Assembly: GCA_036323355.1 (NCBI GenBank)
Contig: AP028876.1
Coordinates: 62,001-126,000, forward strand
Length of the DNA: 64,000 bases
Reading direction: 5' to 3'
Source of the DNA: Gottschalkiaceae bacterium SANA
GTDB lineage: Bacteria > Bacillota > Clostridia > Tissierellales > GPF-1
Shown one piece after another: positions 3,108-37,151 of the stretch. Position 1 is the first letter of the stretch. Every line of letters starts with the position of its first letter. Position numbers and translations under genes: made by a program. Below the pieces are notes generated by a model. It was not told where the DNA came from. It searched no databases and was given only the letters and a program-made list of their open reading frames with translations.

Positions 3108-3692
3108 ATGAAAGTAAATGCAATTGGACTTCCATGTCCACAACCGGTAATTCAAACAAAAAAGGCCTTGGAGGCGATTGAGTCTGGCCTTGTTGAGGTG
3201 GTTGTCGATAATATGGTGGCAAGAGAAAATGTGAAAAAACTGGCAGCTAAGCTTGGATTTCCCTGCCAAGAGAGGGAAGAAGGCGATAAAATAATCGTTA
3301 TGATTACAAAGGGCCAAGATGCAGTAAAGCCGGAAGTTTCGGCCGCACAATTGGCACCGCGCACCCTTGCAATTGCGGCAGAGACCATGGGTCGCGGCGA
3401 TGAAGAATTGGGAAAAATTTTGATGAAGGGATTTATTTACAGCTTAACAGAAGTTCATCCTTACCCCAAAACGATTCTTTTTTATAATGGTGGAGTCAAA
3501 CTCGCTTGCGAGGGGGCGGAATCCATTGAGGATCTTGAAAAATTGGAGGCTGCCGGGGTTGAAATCTTGGTATGCGGGACATGCTTGAATTTCTTTGATC
3601 TCGGTGATAAAATTGCCGTTGGGTCTGTGAGTAATATGTACACGATTGTCGAGGCCTTGCAAGACACTGAAAATACGTTGATTTTATCATAG
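3108..3692 (+). CDS. yedF: Sulfurtransferase-like selenium metabolism protein YedF
   Basis: 194 residues, two domains. Residues 1-75 are a TusA/SirA-like domain with the GLPCPQP motif (Cys10 in CPxP), the persulfide or perselenide carrier site. Residues about 95-194 are DsrE/F-like, with LVCGTCLNFFDL near residue 150. This fused form is known from genome comparisons as a marker of selenium-using organisms and is thought to carry selenium or sulfur; the biochemistry is not settled. It is followed directly by the DUF3343 gene, another Se/S-carrier-like protein, and this window also has a likely selenoprotein at 35.7 kb, which agrees with a selenium role. AGGAGG precedes the start. Confidence 0.9.
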   Translation: MKVNAIGLPCPQPVIQTKKALEAIESGLVEVVVDNMVARENVKKLAAKLGFPCQEREEGDKIIVMITKGQDAVKPEVSAAQLAPRTLAIAAETMGRGDEELGKILMKGFIYSLTEVHPYPKTILFYNGGVKLACEGAESIEDLEKLEAAGVEILVCGTCLNFFDLGDKIAVGSVSNMYTIVEALQDTENTLILS

Positions 3693-3700
3693 GAGACAAA

Positions 3701-3967
3701 ATGGATATTTTTTATATTTTCACTTTTGATTCTACCCAGCAAGCAATGCGTTGTGAGAAGGAATTAAAAGAAGAAGGGTTTCGTGTTCGCATTATTCCAA
3801 CACCAAGAGAAATTACAGCGAGCTGCGGATTATCTTTGCGTTTTGAAAAGAAGGATCAGGGACTGATTCAAGACAAGGTGAGAAAACAAGGTCTTGAAAT
3901 CATGGGAATCTATCGCGTGGAGAAGGAAGGCTTGAAAAAGCAGGTCTTTCCCTTAAACGAAGAATAG
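3701..3967 (+). CDS. DUF3343 protein, putative Se/S carrier
   Basis: 88 residues, soluble. The fold signature is a beta-strand start (IFYIFTFDSTQQAM), a helix, PTPREITASCGLSLRF with a single conserved Cys in the SCGLSLRF segment, and an EKEG tail, as in the DUF3343 family named putative Se/S carrier-like. The Cys in this position is suited to carry a persulfide or selenide (inference). It lies 8 bases after yedF and 10 bases before the DUF951 gene, so the three are likely cotranscribed. No other known activity. Confidence 0.82.
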   Translation: MDIFYIFTFDSTQQAMRCEKELKEEGFRVRIIPTPREITASCGLSLRFEKKDQGLIQDKVRKQGLEIMGIYRVEKEGLKKQVFPLNEE

Positions 3968-16687: not shown

Positions 16688-16841
16688 GTGTATAAATTGA
16701 GGATGCAATGATCAAGAGTACGGAGGGGTCCGGAAAGGGTGAGTTGCCGAAGGGAAGAAATTCCTTGGGCTTATGTTTTAAGAGGCATAAGACTGTCTGT
16801 ACGAGTCTGCCCAGATTCGTACAAGAAGAGCGTTTATACAT
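16688..16841 (+). promoter_or_regulatory. Lysine riboswitch (L box)
   Basis: The P1 strands TGTATAAA (about 16690-16697) and TTTATACA (about 16833-16840) pair. Between them are the conserved L-box segments: GAGGATGCAA at the P2 base, AAAGGGTGAGTTGCCGAAGG, CTTGGGCTTATG with its partner GCATAAGACTGTC, and the closing GAGCG. It binds lysine and should favour the terminator just downstream, lowering transcription of the lysA-lysC-asd-dap operon when lysine is plentiful. Confidence 0.93.
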
Positions 16842-17178: not shown

Positions 17179-18486
17179 ATGAAATTATTTGGAACAATGG
17201 CAGCAAATGAAGAAAATCACTTGGAAATAGGCGGGGTCGATACCCTTGCACTGGCAAGGAAACACGGTACACCGCTATACGTGATGGATCAGGGATTAAT
17301 CGAAGACAATATTGAAACCTTTTTATCTCGTTTTCAATCGGAAAAGTTTGATACTGATATTGTTTATGCATCCAAGGCATTTTTGAACCTGGCCTTTTGC
17401 AAATTGATTGCCGAAAAGGGATTGTCCATGGATACCCTGTCGGATGGAGATCTGTATATCGCGAAGCGAGCAGGATTTCCCATGGAACGCATTGTCATGC
17501 ACGGCAATTCAAAAAGCGTGGCTGAACTGACCATGGCCTTGGATCTTGGGGTTGGTGTGATCGTGGTCGATAATTATGATGAATTTGTAAAACTAGATAA
17601 ACTTACTCGCGAGCGTGAAGAGATGACACGAATTTTGGTTCGTGTAAATCCGGGTATCGAGGCCCATACCCATGAGTACATTCAAACTTCGACATATTCT
17701 TCGAAGTTTGGAGAAAGCATCTTTGATCCAAATATTTTCAACTGGTTCACGGAAATGAACGCAGCGCCTTATCTTCAGGTCGAGGGCATCCATTGCCATA
17801 TCGGATCTCAGATCTTTGAATCCTCGTCCTTCTTACAGGCTGTTCGCGTAATGACGGAATTTGTAGCCAAGGTGGAAAGTGAGACCAAAATTCGATTAAC
17901 CACTCTGAACCTGGGTGGCGGATTTGGTGTCTATTATACAGAGGGAGATGACCCGATTGCCCTTGGTAACATGCTTGACGCTATGATCGCTACCTTAGAG
18001 GAAGAGATTACAGATAGAAACTTGAAACTGAATCGTGTCATGATTGAACCGGGTCGCAGCATTGTCTGCAATGCCGGTACCACCCTATATACGGTGGAAT
18101 CGAGAAAGACGACTTACAGCGGCAAGTCCTATGTTTTGGTAGACGGTGGCATGACGGACAACCCTAGACCAGCGCTTTATCAGGCTGTCTATGAAGGGGT
18201 CATTGCCAATCGAATGGGAGACAGCCCAACAGAAGAAGTATGTGTAGCAGGCAAGTGTTGTGAGTCGGGTGATGTTTTGATTCAATCCACGAAGCTGCAA
18301 GCGGCTGAAGTTGGTGATATCTTGGCGATAGCTTCAACCGGAGCCTATACCTATTCCATGTCTTCAAACTATAACTCGGTTCGTCGAGCGGCTGTGGTCA
18401 TGGTAAAAGACGGGCAAGATCGACTGGTGACGAAACGAGAATCCTTTGAGGATTTGGTACGAAACGATCTGGATCTGGAGGATTAA
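17179..18486 (+). CDS. lysA: Diaminopimelate decarboxylase
   Basis: 435 residues. PLP enzyme converting meso-diaminopimelate to lysine and CO2. The PLP lysine is in VYASKAFLN (about residue 64), HCHIGSQIF and LNLGGGFGVYY form the phosphate and PLP pocket, and CVAGKCCESGDVL supplies the active-site Cys. It is first in the operon, under the riboswitch, followed by the aspartokinase gene with no gap (stop then ATG). AGGAAGAGG precedes the start. Confidence 0.96.
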   Translation: MKLFGTMAANEENHLEIGGVDTLALARKHGTPLYVMDQGLIEDNIETFLSRFQSEKFDTDIVYASKAFLNLAFCKLIAEKGLSMDTLSDGDLYIAKRAGFPMERIVMHGNSKSVAELTMALDLGVGVIVVDNYDEFVKLDKLTREREEMTRILVRVNPGIEAHTHEYIQTSTYSSKFGESIFDPNIFNWFTEMNAAPYLQVEGIHCHIGSQIFESSSFLQAVRVMTEFVAKVESETKIRLTTLNLGGGFGVYYTEGDDPIALGNMLDAMIATLEEEITDRNLKLNRVMIEPGRSIVCNAGTTLYTVESRKTTYSGKSYVLVDGGMTDNPRPALYQAVYEGVIANRMGDSPTEEVCVAGKCCESGDVLIQSTKLQAAEVGDILAIASTGAYTYSMSSNYNSVRRAAVVMVKDGQDRLVTKRESFEDLVRNDLDLED

Positions 18487-33076: not shown

Positions 33077-35668
33077 ATGATTAAACATTTTCAAGAATTG
33101 ACAAAAGAAGAATTTCATCTAGTTGGTGGGAAAGGGCATAATTTAGGGATTCTTTTACAAGCTAGTTTTCCGGTTCCGGAAGGATTTTGTATCTTGTCTC
33201 GGGTATTTGATGAGATGATTCGAAAAACTGGAGGAACAGAGGCGTTGCTTGCCTTGGATCAATTGGATCCTGAGAATGTGAAAGGGATTGAAGCGAGTGG
33301 TAAAGCGATTCGCGGGTTGATTCTTCAATCAGAATTGAGCGAGATCTTGCAGGTGGAACTGCAAACAGCATTGCAGAGGTTTGATGAAGGAACTTCATTT
33401 GCGGTACGATCCAGTGCCACAGCGGAAGACTTGCCGGATGCATCCTTTGCTGGACAACAGGACTCTTATCTCTTTATAGAAGGAATTGAAGCGGTTATGG
33501 TTTCGATTCGAAAATGTTGGGCTTCTCTTTTTAATGATCGTGCAATCAGTTATCGGTTAAAAAATAAAATCTCTCATCAGAGCTTATCGATCTCTGTTGT
33601 GGTGCAAGAAATGATTGCACCAAAATACTCGGGAGTTGTCTTTACTGTGGATCCCTTATCGGAGGATCGGCGGTCGTTGATTGTAGATTATGTGACGGGA
33701 ACGGGAGATGATTTGGTAGCAGGAAAAATAACGCCCAATACCATCGCCTATCAGCGTAAGGCGAAAGAGATTCTTTCGCACCATAAGGAGTCCGAAGACA
33801 ATGGGGTGCTGGAAGATCAAGCTATTCATCAGCTTGCAGAACTTGCTGTGGAAATTGAAGCGCTTTACGAGATGCCGATGGATATTGAATGGGCACTGGA
33901 TCAAGAGGACAAGCTTTGGATCTTGCAAGCCCGAGCCATTACAACCCTATTCCCCTTGATCGACCCGGACCGGGAAGGCAATGCCGTGTATCTTTCCTTC
34001 CATCATGTTCAAAATATGATGAAGCCCATTCGGCCCTTGGGTGTGGATTGTTTGAAATGGATATTCCCCTTTGATAGAAATGAGTGGGGGAAATCGAAGA
34101 TAATGAAGGCGGCAGGGGGATATGTATTTCTGGATATTACGGATTATCTGGCGGTACCGATCTTTCGAAAAGCAGTGGGCTCTCGCTTTGACGGAATTGA
34201 TGCCTTGATGGCAAGTAGCATGCGTCGTGTGCTCAAGGACCGAGCCTTTGTGAAGGCCATTCAACCCCACAATAAAAAGGGCAAGGAGCTACTGGACGGA
34301 GTATGGTCTTTGAGCCATGAAATGAGAAAAGCTCTTCATCCGCGAAATATGCGGATTGAGGCTTGCGATGCCTTTATTGCATCCTACGTCGATCACTTGA
34401 AGGATGATTTGGTAAGGGAAGCGGATCCGGTCAAGCGATTGGAGTCATGCAAGGCGGCCCTTGGTGGGTATTTGCAGGAAGCATTGATGAAAATTGGTTC
34501 CTATATTGGACCCGGGATGGCTTCCTATCTGTATTTGGTGAAAAAGACAAGCCGTCATTTGGGATCGGATGAATTGGCGCAACTCCTAGCTTCGGGTTTG
34601 GTTGGCAATGTGACCACGGAAATGGGGCTAGTGATTGGAGATTTGGCAGAAGAAATTCGTAAAGATGATGTTTGGCTTCGACGCTTGGATCAATGGGATG
34701 CGAGTGTTTTTGTTTCTGAGTTGATGCGAGCGGAGGGATCAGCTGGCGACTTGATGCGCCTTGTCATGGATCGCTATGGTTCCCGTGGGATTGGCGAAAT
34801 CGATATCACCAATGCCAGGTGGTTTGAGGATCCAACGCCCATTGTTATCAGTATTCAAAATCATCTGCGGGTATTCAAACCAGGCCAGCATCGGCGGGAG
34901 TACCATGCCTTGACCCTAGCTTCGATTGAGGCTGGAGAGGCGATTGTCACTCAAATGAGCCGGGGACCACGTTGGATTTTCCGACGGCATTATCGAAATA
35001 TGGTGGATCGGGTCCTGAATCTTATGCCAGCCCGGGAACATGGCAAGTACGGCTTGATTTTGGTCTATGGACATGTAAAAAAGGAAATTTTGCAGGCGGC
35101 TAAAGAGGCGGTTGATAAAGGATGGTTGGATACGAAAGAAGATATTTATTATCTTAAGCTTGATGAAATTATTGAGATGGTGAAAAATAAGAAAGCCATG
35201 CAGGAACGAATTAAGGAAAGAAAACTTGCCTTCCAGAAGGCGAAAGGCAGACGTGTGCCTAGAGTGGTGACCAATCAGGGTTGGATTGTGCCACCGGAAG
35301 AGTCGAATCGAGTTTTAAAAGAGAATGAGCTGGGCGGAACTGGCGTATCTAGCGGCATTTACCAAGGGATCGCCCGGGTGGTAGAGCAGCCGGAAGAGGC
35401 AAGAATGAAAGCGGGAGAAATTCTGGTTGCCCCCTTTACAGATCCGGGATGGACACCGCTCTTTATTCATGCCAAAGGCTTGATTTTGGAAGTCGGAGGA
35501 TTGTTGACCCATGGGGCCATTGTCGCCAGGGAATATGGAATTCCGGCTGTCGTGGGGGTGGATCGTGCGACGAGCAAAATTAAAACGGGCGATTGGGTTC
35601 AAGTTGACGGAAATACAGGGATTGTCACGATCCTACAGAAAAAAGAGAGAGAAGAGGGCGTTTCATAA
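33077..35668 (+). CDS. PEP-utilising enzyme, rifampicin-phosphotransferase-like architecture
   Basis: 863 residues. Residues 1-315 are an ATP-grasp PEP/pyruvate-kinase domain (LVGGKGHNLG, FAVRSSATAEDLPDASFAGQ, VVVQEMIAPKYSGVVFT, DIEWALD, WILQARAIT). A middle region (about 320-755) has no motif I recognise. Residues 770-855 are the swivelling phospho-His domain, GGLLTHGAIVAREYGIPAVV with His812. Swivel at the C terminus and no PEP-binding barrel is the order of rifampicin phosphotransferases (usually about 865 residues), not of PEP synthase. The real acceptor could be rifamycin or another small molecule. Its stop overlaps the start of a selenoprotein gene by one base. Confidence 0.85.
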   Translation: MIKHFQELTKEEFHLVGGKGHNLGILLQASFPVPEGFCILSRVFDEMIRKTGGTEALLALDQLDPENVKGIEASGKAIRGLILQSELSEILQVELQTALQRFDEGTSFAVRSSATAEDLPDASFAGQQDSYLFIEGIEAVMVSIRKCWASLFNDRAISYRLKNKISHQSLSISVVVQEMIAPKYSGVVFTVDPLSEDRRSLIVDYVTGTGDDLVAGKITPNTIAYQRKAKEILSHHKESEDNGVLEDQAIHQLAELAVEIEALYEMPMDIEWALDQEDKLWILQARAITTLFPLIDPDREGNAVYLSFHHVQNMMKPIRPLGVDCLKWIFPFDRNEWGKSKIMKAAGGYVFLDITDYLAVPIFRKAVGSRFDGIDALMASSMRRVLKDRAFVKAIQPHNKKGKELLDGVWSLSHEMRKALHPRNMRIEACDAFIASYVDHLKDDLVREADPVKRLESCKAALGGYLQEALMKIGSYIGPGMASYLYLVKKTSRHLGSDELAQLLASGLVGNVTTEMGLVIGDLAEEIRKDDVWLRRLDQWDASVFVSELMRAEGSAGDLMRLVMDRYGSRGIGEIDITNARWFEDPTPIVISIQNHLRVFKPGQHRREYHALTLASIEAGEAIVTQMSRGPRWIFRRHYRNMVDRVLNLMPAREHGKYGLILVYGHVKKEILQAAKEAVDKGWLDTKEDIYYLKLDEIIEMVKNKKAMQERIKERKLAFQKAKGRRVPRVVTNQGWIVPPEESNRVLKENELGGTGVSSGIYQGIARVVEQPEEARMKAGEILVAPFTDPGWTPLFIHAKGLILEVGGLLTHGAIVAREYGIPAVVGVDRATSKIKTGDWVQVDGNTGIVTILQKKEREEGVS

Positions 35669-35967
35669 TGAAGATTGTTATTGAGGAGCAAGTAAAAGCG
35701 TATTTGCAAAAGAAAAACAAGAAGGTAATCACCCTCAGTCTTCGTATGGCTGGCGGTGGTTGAGCGGGCTCTGTAATCGAGCCGGAGATTAGACTCGCGG
35801 TGCCGGCGGCACCGGAAAAAGATTTTTATGTAAAGCATGAAGTGGATGGAATTGATGTTTATCTACACTTGCCAGTGATGAAAAAAGCAGAAAGCTTATC
35901 TTTTGCCATGGCTGGAGTTTGGATTTTCAAACGAGTGATTGCAGAGGGATTGAATTTACGGTTTTAG
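35668..35967 (+). CDS. Small selenoprotein (CC/Se or HesB-like), Sec encoded by in-frame TGA
   Basis: Read through TGA 35761-35763 as selenocysteine, the frame gives 99 residues with Sec32 in LRMAGGGUAGSVIEPEI, ending at TAG 35965. The part after the TGA keeps protein-like order: FYVKHEVDGIDVYLHLP and AGVWIFKRVIAEGLNL, which fit the fold of HesB-like and CC/Se-motif proteins. Just after the TGA is a GGCTC/GAGCC hairpin with a TGTAATC loop, and a second stem GGTGCC/GGCACC at 35799-35813, both possible bacterial SECIS elements. It starts in the stop of the PEP-utilising enzyme (TAATG) and is 11 bases before the AlaX gene. Selenium use is supported by yedF and DUF3343. A plain stop would leave a useless 31-residue peptide. 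Confidence 0.78.
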
Positions 35968-35978
35968 GAGAGGGAAAG

Positions 35979-37151
35979 ATGACAAGAAGATTATTTGATG
36001 AAAATGTGTATTTGATGGAAACGCAGGCGAGAGTCGAGGCGGTTGAAGAAAAAGACGGAAAAGTCTGGGTGATTTTAGATCAGACAATCTTTGCTCCAGA
36101 GGGTGGCGGACAGGATGCGGACCATGGTTGGATCAATGGAATCGCTGTGCTAGATGTGCGGGAAAAGGGGGAAAGCATCCATCATTTGGTGGAGAAAGAG
36201 CTTCTTGTAGGTACGGAAGTCGATTTGAAGATTGATTGGGATCGAAGACTTGATCATATGCAGCAGCATTGCGGTGAGCATATCTTGTCAGGTGTGATCT
36301 ATGAAAAATTAAAGGGAAACAACAAGGGTTTTCATATGGGTGCCGAAGTGGTAACTGTGGATATCGACTTGCCTGCTATTTCGGATGCGATGGTGCTTGA
36401 GATCGAAGCAGAAGTCAATCGAAAGATTCAAGAAAATCTGCCAATTGAGATCCAAGTGGTGGACCGGTTGGAGGAATTGGCGGATGTGCCTCTTCGTAAA
36501 ATGCCGACGGTGGACACGGACATTCGCGTGGTGAATGTACCGGGCGTGGATTGTGTTGCTTGTTGCGGTACCCACCCGACACAAACGGGAGAAGTGGGCA
36601 TTTTACGCATTTTGCGGGCGGACAAGTATAAGGGTATGACCCGGATTCAATTTGTCTGCGGCATGCGGGCGGTGAAAAATTCCACCTTTGAACATCATAT
36701 TTTGCGGGAATTAAACCAGCAATACTCCACAGAATCCGCGGGCTTGGTGGCGCGTTTGACAAAAGAACGGGAGAAAATCTCGAAATTAGAGCAAGAATTG
36801 AAAGTGTATCAGGTCCAAGAGATGGATCTTCTGGCTGCTGAATTAATTGCAGAAAAGCAAATCATTCTCAGCCGAGAATTTGAAAGCATGGAATCGGGTA
36901 TGATGATGAATCTGGCAAAAACTATTTTGAAGGAACGACAAGGAATTTGTTTATTTGCGAGCTTGTCGGAGAAAAAGGTTATACTGGTCCATAACGTTAA
37001 AGAGCTCCATGCGGGCAAGGTCTTTAAGGAAACCATCCAAGCGGCAAACGGCCGGGGTGGCGGTGGAGCAAGTTCTGCGCAAGGAAGTTTTCAAAATCTT
37101 GAGGACCTACAGAGCTTTTTGGCAAGCATTCAGACATTATTGGGAAGGTAA
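35979..37151 (+). CDS. Alanyl-tRNA editing protein, AlaX-L with DHHA1 domain
   Basis: 390 residues from ATG 35979 (GGAGAGGG upstream). N-terminal editing core as in AlaRS: FAPEGGGQDADHG, the zinc ligands HMQQHCGEHILSG (HxxxH) and CVACCGTHP, and then a coiled-coil plus a C-terminal DHHA1-like domain with GRGGGGASSAQG. It frees tRNA-Ala from wrongly attached serine or glycine. This is the long freestanding form. Located after the selenoprotein gene and probably in the same transcript; whether the link is functional is not known. Confidence 0.92.
   Translation: MTRRLFDENVYLMETQARVEAVEEKDGKVWVILDQTIFAPEGGGQDADHGWINGIAVLDVREKGESIHHLVEKELLVGTEVDLKIDWDRRLDHMQQHCGEHILSGVIYEKLKGNNKGFHMGAEVVTVDIDLPAISDAMVLEIEAEVNRKIQENLPIEIQVVDRLEELADVPLRKMPTVDTDIRVVNVPGVDCVACCGTHPTQTGEVGILRILRADKYKGMTRIQFVCGMRAVKNSTFEHHILRELNQQYSTESAGLVARLTKEREKISKLEQELKVYQVQEMDLLAAELIAEKQIILSREFESMESGMMMNLAKTILKERQGICLFASLSEKKVILVHNVKELHAGKVFKETIQAANGRGGGGASSAQGSFQNLEDLQSFLASIQTLLGR

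Follow-up and report, generated by a model that had tools for sequence, protein, structure and literature searches.

CC/Se is one of the prokaryotic selenoprotein families tabulated, with the motif CxxU, in a 2026 review (PMC13188914, Table 1), where it is entered as hypothetical and as a prediction from Moorella thermoacetica. The same review gives a model of the bacterial SECIS element (bSECIS), with a loop of 3–9 nt carrying a G in its first two positions, a stem of 4–16 bp, a folding energy of −7.5 kcal/mol or lower, and a UGA-to-loop spacing that is typically 16–37 nt and that a subset of genes fails (PMC13188914).

Other systems close to the locus described here are the HesB-like selenoproteins (TIGR01911 / NF038090), which carry the motif UxGP, and the A-type Fe-S carriers IscA, SufA and ErpA. 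DsrR of Allochromatium vinosum lacks the full IscA ligand set and is linked to dissimilatory sulfur oxidation.

We analysed a window of 64,000 nucleotides from Gottschalkiaceae bacterium SANA (GCA_036323355.1, contig AP028876.1, positions 62,001 to 126,000). We predict, with little doubt, that the frame at 35668–35967 of this window is a genuine but unannotated selenoprotein gene in which the UGA at 35761–35763 is read as selenocysteine (Sec). The features of the locus are as follows.

33077–35668, + strand: upstream gene, 863 aa, PEP-synthase / rifamycin-phosphotransferase-like, with PPDK_N and PEP-utilizer domains (synteny in three species)
35653–35658, + strand: Shine-Dalgarno-like AGAGGG, 9 nt 5' of the ATG (read from the sequence)
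35668–35967, + strand: predicted selenoprotein gene of the CC/Se motif family (NF041239), 99 aa, Sec32, no Cys codon
35761–35763, + strand: in-frame TGA, predicted Sec at residue 32; the aligned residue is Cys in Cys-only relatives and Cys35 in E. coli IscA
35764–35817, + strand: silent-site-constrained stretch, codons 33–50, holding the putative SECIS (three-species codon comparison)
35767–35783, + strand: proximal hairpin GGCUC-UGUAAUC-GAGCC, kept in three species (UGURAUC), presumed spacer or support
35798–35814, + strand: distal hairpin CGGUGCC-GGC-GGCACCG, likely the SelB-binding SECIS (predicted fold, covariation)
35979–37151, + strand: downstream AlaX-like alanyl-tRNA editing protein, 390 aa (synteny in three species)

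A single frame across an in-frame TGA

When the coordinates were re-derived, the central proposal of the earlier note, one frame of 99 residues with the TGA as Sec, came out exactly as claimed. The boundaries it had given were likewise re-read in the sequence: the 863-aa gene before it ends in a TAA (35666–35668) that overlaps the ATG (35668–35670), and 11 bases separate the end of the frame from the AlaX-like gene. The frame contains a single TGA and closes with TAG at 35965–35967, and its product reads AGGGUAGS around U32. The 863-aa protein fell under every curated cut-off (603.5 against 999 bits for the rifamycin enzyme).

Ordinary annotation would break this gene at its TGA. Read in that way, the TGA is a true stop, and the locus is either a decayed gene or two unrelated short frames joined by chance. 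Frames of similar size joined by a TGA are common, 30 of them occurring in the window and four of these outside called genes, so that the joined frame alone proves little. As judged from sequence comparison, the above-chance status of 35668–35967 rests on homology, conservation in the genus and constraint on silent sites. The joined protein matched the NCBIfam profile NF041239 (Moor_selen_rel) from end to end, with 52.4 bits against a cut-off of 40 and residues 1–95 lying on profile positions 1–91 of 91. Orthologues in two other genomes of the genus (G001 and G002) are 80 and 86% identical and keep the same single TGA in an open frame; a PEP-synthase-like gene lies upstream and an AlaX-like gene downstream, as in the source. 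The earlier note had regarded a frameshift or other stops in related strains as evidence against the gene, and neither of these genomes has any. Codon differences among the three species are mostly at third positions, 5' as well as 3' of the TGA, which indicates that selection at the protein level acts on the two halves as a single gene. With the freezing of silent sites 3' of the TGA (see below), these observations make a true stop extremely improbable.

Membership in the CC/Se family

The NF041239 match, shared by all 21 aligned family members, identifies the gene at the sequence level as a further member of an already known selenoprotein family. The earlier note had therefore overrated its novelty, the CC/Se family having been named as a selenoprotein family before (PMC13188914, Table 1). 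What is modestly new is the Cys-free Sec form, the probable assignment of an IscA fold to the family, and a UGA-to-loop spacing of the SECIS beyond 16–37 nt. The locus adds a firmly supported, unannotated selenoprotein to the family.

An alignment of the whole family proved too divergent to serve as the seed of a genome scan, and a Tissierella-type relative was used as the query instead; with it, the scan of the genome contigs gave two loci. Family matches were present in 100 of 199 related genomes, many of them with exactly one internal TGA, and in 37 of 391 genomes sampled from the class, and searches of phage and viral collections found no relative. We extracted 76 family frames; in 67 of them a TGA falls close to the aligned position (Sec members), and nine are Sec-less. 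Cys-only relatives read GCC at the Sec32 column. The earlier note had set in advance, as a decisive test, a Cys at residue 32 of a homologue, and had taken the lack of any homologue across this position as a refutation. Homologues that extend across it were found. In one, which is plasmid-borne in Aerococcus, residue 32 is Cys (CC32), with no gap from the N-terminus to there. In the homologue from Acetoanaerobium this residue is Sec, within RGUAGP.

The earlier note was correct that no Cys neighbours the Sec, the source protein having GGGUAG instead of the CC, CU, UC or CxxU that the family name, the review table and some relatives show. Its concern that this departs from the family pattern did not hold. 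Extra Cys residues in the Sec members lie before or after the Sec at varying distances, and 12 of the 67, including all three from the source genus, have no Cys at all. Sec that lacks an adjacent Cys is thus common in CC/Se proteins; such a Cys is neither constant nor defining for them, and it does not figure in the cut-off of the curated NF041239 model. Because Cys-free surroundings occur elsewhere in the family, the source protein is a variant within CC/Se and its motif is no evidence against membership; the neighbouring Cys that gave the family its name is dispensable.

Some family loci showed features of their own. The Cys-form homologue of Aerococcus urinaeequi plasmid pT4302 (L099:3001-3282) lies beside a predicted copper-transporting ATPase gene, and the PLSDB table enters no gene at its position. 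The Sec-form homologue of Acetoanaerobium noterae (L100:2501-2791) is found in a record that is hardly annotated. Two members on long branches (L055, L086) have neither Sec nor Cys, a possible loss of the active residue, and tandem pairs with Sec in both copies occur at L064, L068, L069, L070 and L071.

Silent-site constraint and hairpins downstream of the UGA

We compared codon usage at conserved residues among the three species. Codon changes were found at 2 of 17 such residues in codons 33–50 and at 33 of 52 elsewhere (Fisher p = 2e-4); the exact region was picked after inspection, and its location is where a bacterial SECIS is expected. The earlier note had described two hairpins after the TGA, with loops 9–15 and about 42 bases on, and both were recovered. 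The proximal hairpin has its loop at 35772–35778, which is 9–15 bases past the TGA (8 nt spacing), and a predicted energy of −6.6 kcal/mol. The distal hairpin has 7 bp, a GGC triloop at 35805–35807, 42–44 bases past the TGA, and a predicted energy of −11.3 kcal/mol. Its loop is of the standard type, and loop, stem and energy all lie within the bSECIS ranges, but its spacing of 41 nt from UGA to loop (40 nt if the loop is taken as CGGCG) is longer than the published 16–37 nt.

Covariation was assessed in 11 sequences, two of which form the distal hairpin poorly. Changes on both sides were seen in five of its seven pairs, 84% of cells could pair, and the covariation score and pairing percentage were reached by none of 500 shuffles and by no slid control. 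Folding after the UGA, compared with synonymous shuffles, gave a mean z of −0.93 for Sec members and +0.23 for the nine Sec-less members; on average the former are thus more stable than their shuffled versions, and the latter are not. An Rfam search gave no SECIS match; the snoRNA matches that it returned were below the curators' cut-offs and were dismissed as chance. Elsewhere in the window, a lysine riboswitch (RF00168, 61.3 bits) was found at 16689–16841, 5' of the gene at 17179.

Which of the two hairpins acts as the SECIS was considered next to these results. The proximal one is nearer to the UGA, is kept in all three species, and has a G at loop position 2. Its 8 nt spacing is nonetheless too short, and its energy is above the limit of −7.5 kcal/mol. 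The distal hairpin, in contrast, has a position-matched, compensated counterpart in CC/Se proteins of other taxonomic families within the order, in matching codons but one codon nearer to the UGA (38 nt), and its GGC loop has a counterpart in Acetoanaerobium, 44 nt past the UGA and behind a first hairpin, as read from the fold. We therefore consider it unlikely that the proximal hairpin is the SECIS, and favour the distal one. The tree does not place the source genus inside the clade with 38-nt hairpins, so that shared descent of the long-spacing hairpin is not established; it may have been inherited or have arisen twice. Position-matched hairpins at 38–44 nt suggest that bacterial SECIS searches set to 16–37 nt miss genes.

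Selenium machinery of the genome

The earlier note had taken yedF and a DUF3343 gene in the window as markers of a selenium user, and both identifications were upheld by profile searches: YedF at 3108–3692 (TIGR03527, 220.7 bits) and a DUF3343 / Se_S_carrier protein at 3701–3967 (PF11823, 95 bits). It had also proposed looking for selA, selB, selC and selD in the genome, and all four are present. The source genome encodes tRNA-Sec (selC, 75.3 bits), SelB (334 bits) and SelD (390 bits, with an in-frame TGA of its own), together with a SelA-like frame between selD and selB that was named by operon position and reading of the sequence; all lie at C1:1375534-1382169. In the three species (L090, L091, L092) the in-frame TGA of selD is followed by two tandem hairpins, of which the second has its GGUAC loop at 32 nt; across the genus the selD loops are at 32–33 nt, behind the first hairpin.

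These data bear on another reading of the UGA, in which it is decoded as Trp or Cys, or is leaky, without selenium. The existence of Cys-containing relatives and a SECIS spacing outside the usual model are in its favour. It is, however, very improbable in a genome that has the full Sec machinery and whose selD itself uses Sec, and for a gene with a covarying SECIS-type GGN-loop hairpin, comparable folding being absent from Sec-less members. We thus retain decoding of the UGA as Sec.

Another Sec protein of the source genome is HesB-like; it is encoded at C1:3359412-3359708, has the UxGP motif in SGFGUSGP, and its gene has the loop at 25 nt. It belongs to a tandem of HesB-like genes (C1:3359412-3359708 and 3359885-3360181; L098, L097), an all-Cys copy followed by the Sec copy, the latter ending in GGGSC and lacking the longer, Cys-rich tail that the former has. 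Searches of the genus found neither formate dehydrogenase nor, in searches run without a positive control, glycine-reductase selenoproteins. From this we would guess that small HesB-fold selenoproteins are perhaps a main reason why the genus keeps its Sec machinery.

Predicted fold and relation to HesB/IscA proteins

An AlphaFold model (three sequences) was of moderate confidence (pLDDT 75, pTM 0.69). In a Foldseek search with the model, the eleven best rows were all IscA-, SufA- or other HesB-type proteins and the twelfth was far weaker; the ten entries shown by VIA-align (Z 5.6–9.5) were all IscA, SufA, DsrR or other HesB-type proteins. In profile alignments, Cys35 of E. coli IscA (P 8e-4) and the Sec of the HesB-like protein from the same genome (P 2.5e-5) both aligned with residue 32. 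A sequence-profile search of the PDB gave nothing convincing (best E 0.17), so that the tie to IscA comes from structural comparison and pairwise profile alignments only. The model thus predicts an IscA/SufA-like (HesB) fold with Sec at the position of IscA's first cluster-ligand Cys. The likeness of the second half to HesB proteins that the earlier note had suggested is right at the level of fold.

The IscA, SufA and ErpA carriers share the predicted fold (Z up to 9.5) and the first-ligand position, but the source protein has Sec for Cys35 and lacks their C-terminal CGC ligands; identity to IscA and SufA over the structural alignments is 7–14%, and the PF01521 score of 12.5 bits is below the gathering score of 26.3. 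The HesB-like selenoproteins (TIGR01911 / NF038090) match in predicted fold and Sec position, whereas the source protein scores far under the NF038090 cut-off (20.5 against 85 bits) and has UAGS rather than UxGP. DsrR (2k4z) matches the IscA fold with Z 7.4 but is not a selenoprotein.

These comparisons suggest what the CC/Se family may be: IscA-fold proteins with a selenol. We consider it fairly probable that CC/Se is a branch of the HesB/IscA fold with Sec in place of the first cluster ligand, in some lineages as the only chalcogen side chain besides Met, and that in some members the SECIS acts over a long range, with a GGN loop 38–44 nt 3' of the UGA that in some cases sits behind a second hairpin and that searches set to 16–37 nt would miss.

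Proposed mechanism and function

In the mechanism that we propose, the UGA at 35761–35763 would be decoded as Sec by the genome's own SelA, SelB, SelC and SelD, with insertion directed by the distal hairpin and its GGC loop within the coding sequence and probably assisted by the proximal hairpin. The product would be a small CC/Se protein of HesB/IscA fold with a single selenol at the first cluster-ligand position. With one selenol and no Cys in the chain, no intramolecular selenenylsulfide can form, and its chemistry has to draw on something else, be it a dimer mate or another partner, a metal, or a small molecule. Either by itself or as a pair formed across a homodimer, the selenol may react with or coordinate something outside the chain, such as a metal, a sulfur or selenium species, or a partner's thiol. 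We regard this as the likeliest mode of action, at about an even chance.

The protein could also be a usual thiol/selenol oxidoreductase, as most selenoproteins are thought to be redox proteins and the family motif is given as CxxU (PMC13188914), and as some relatives do have CU, UC or CxxU. This is possible but somewhat doubtful, because Cys is absent from 12 of the 67 Sec members, the source protein among them, and the predicted fold resembles that of IscA and not that of thioredoxin. A role of the ligand or carrier type is thus slightly favoured over a conventional redox enzyme.

No common gene neighbourhood emerged across the family, and function is therefore argued from fold and motif only. 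At 11 loci (L027, L029, L031, L033, L039, L045, L047, L072, L074, L075, L076), members of one subgroup, with the motif GCSSU or GCASU, come directly after a gene for an SDF-family symporter. A more specific naming of the symporter as a cystine transporter was dropped, since family searches support the broad SDF family only. In four of the 11 loci a cysteine-synthase-like gene follows the family member, and a functional link of this subgroup to amino-acid or sulfur uptake is possible.
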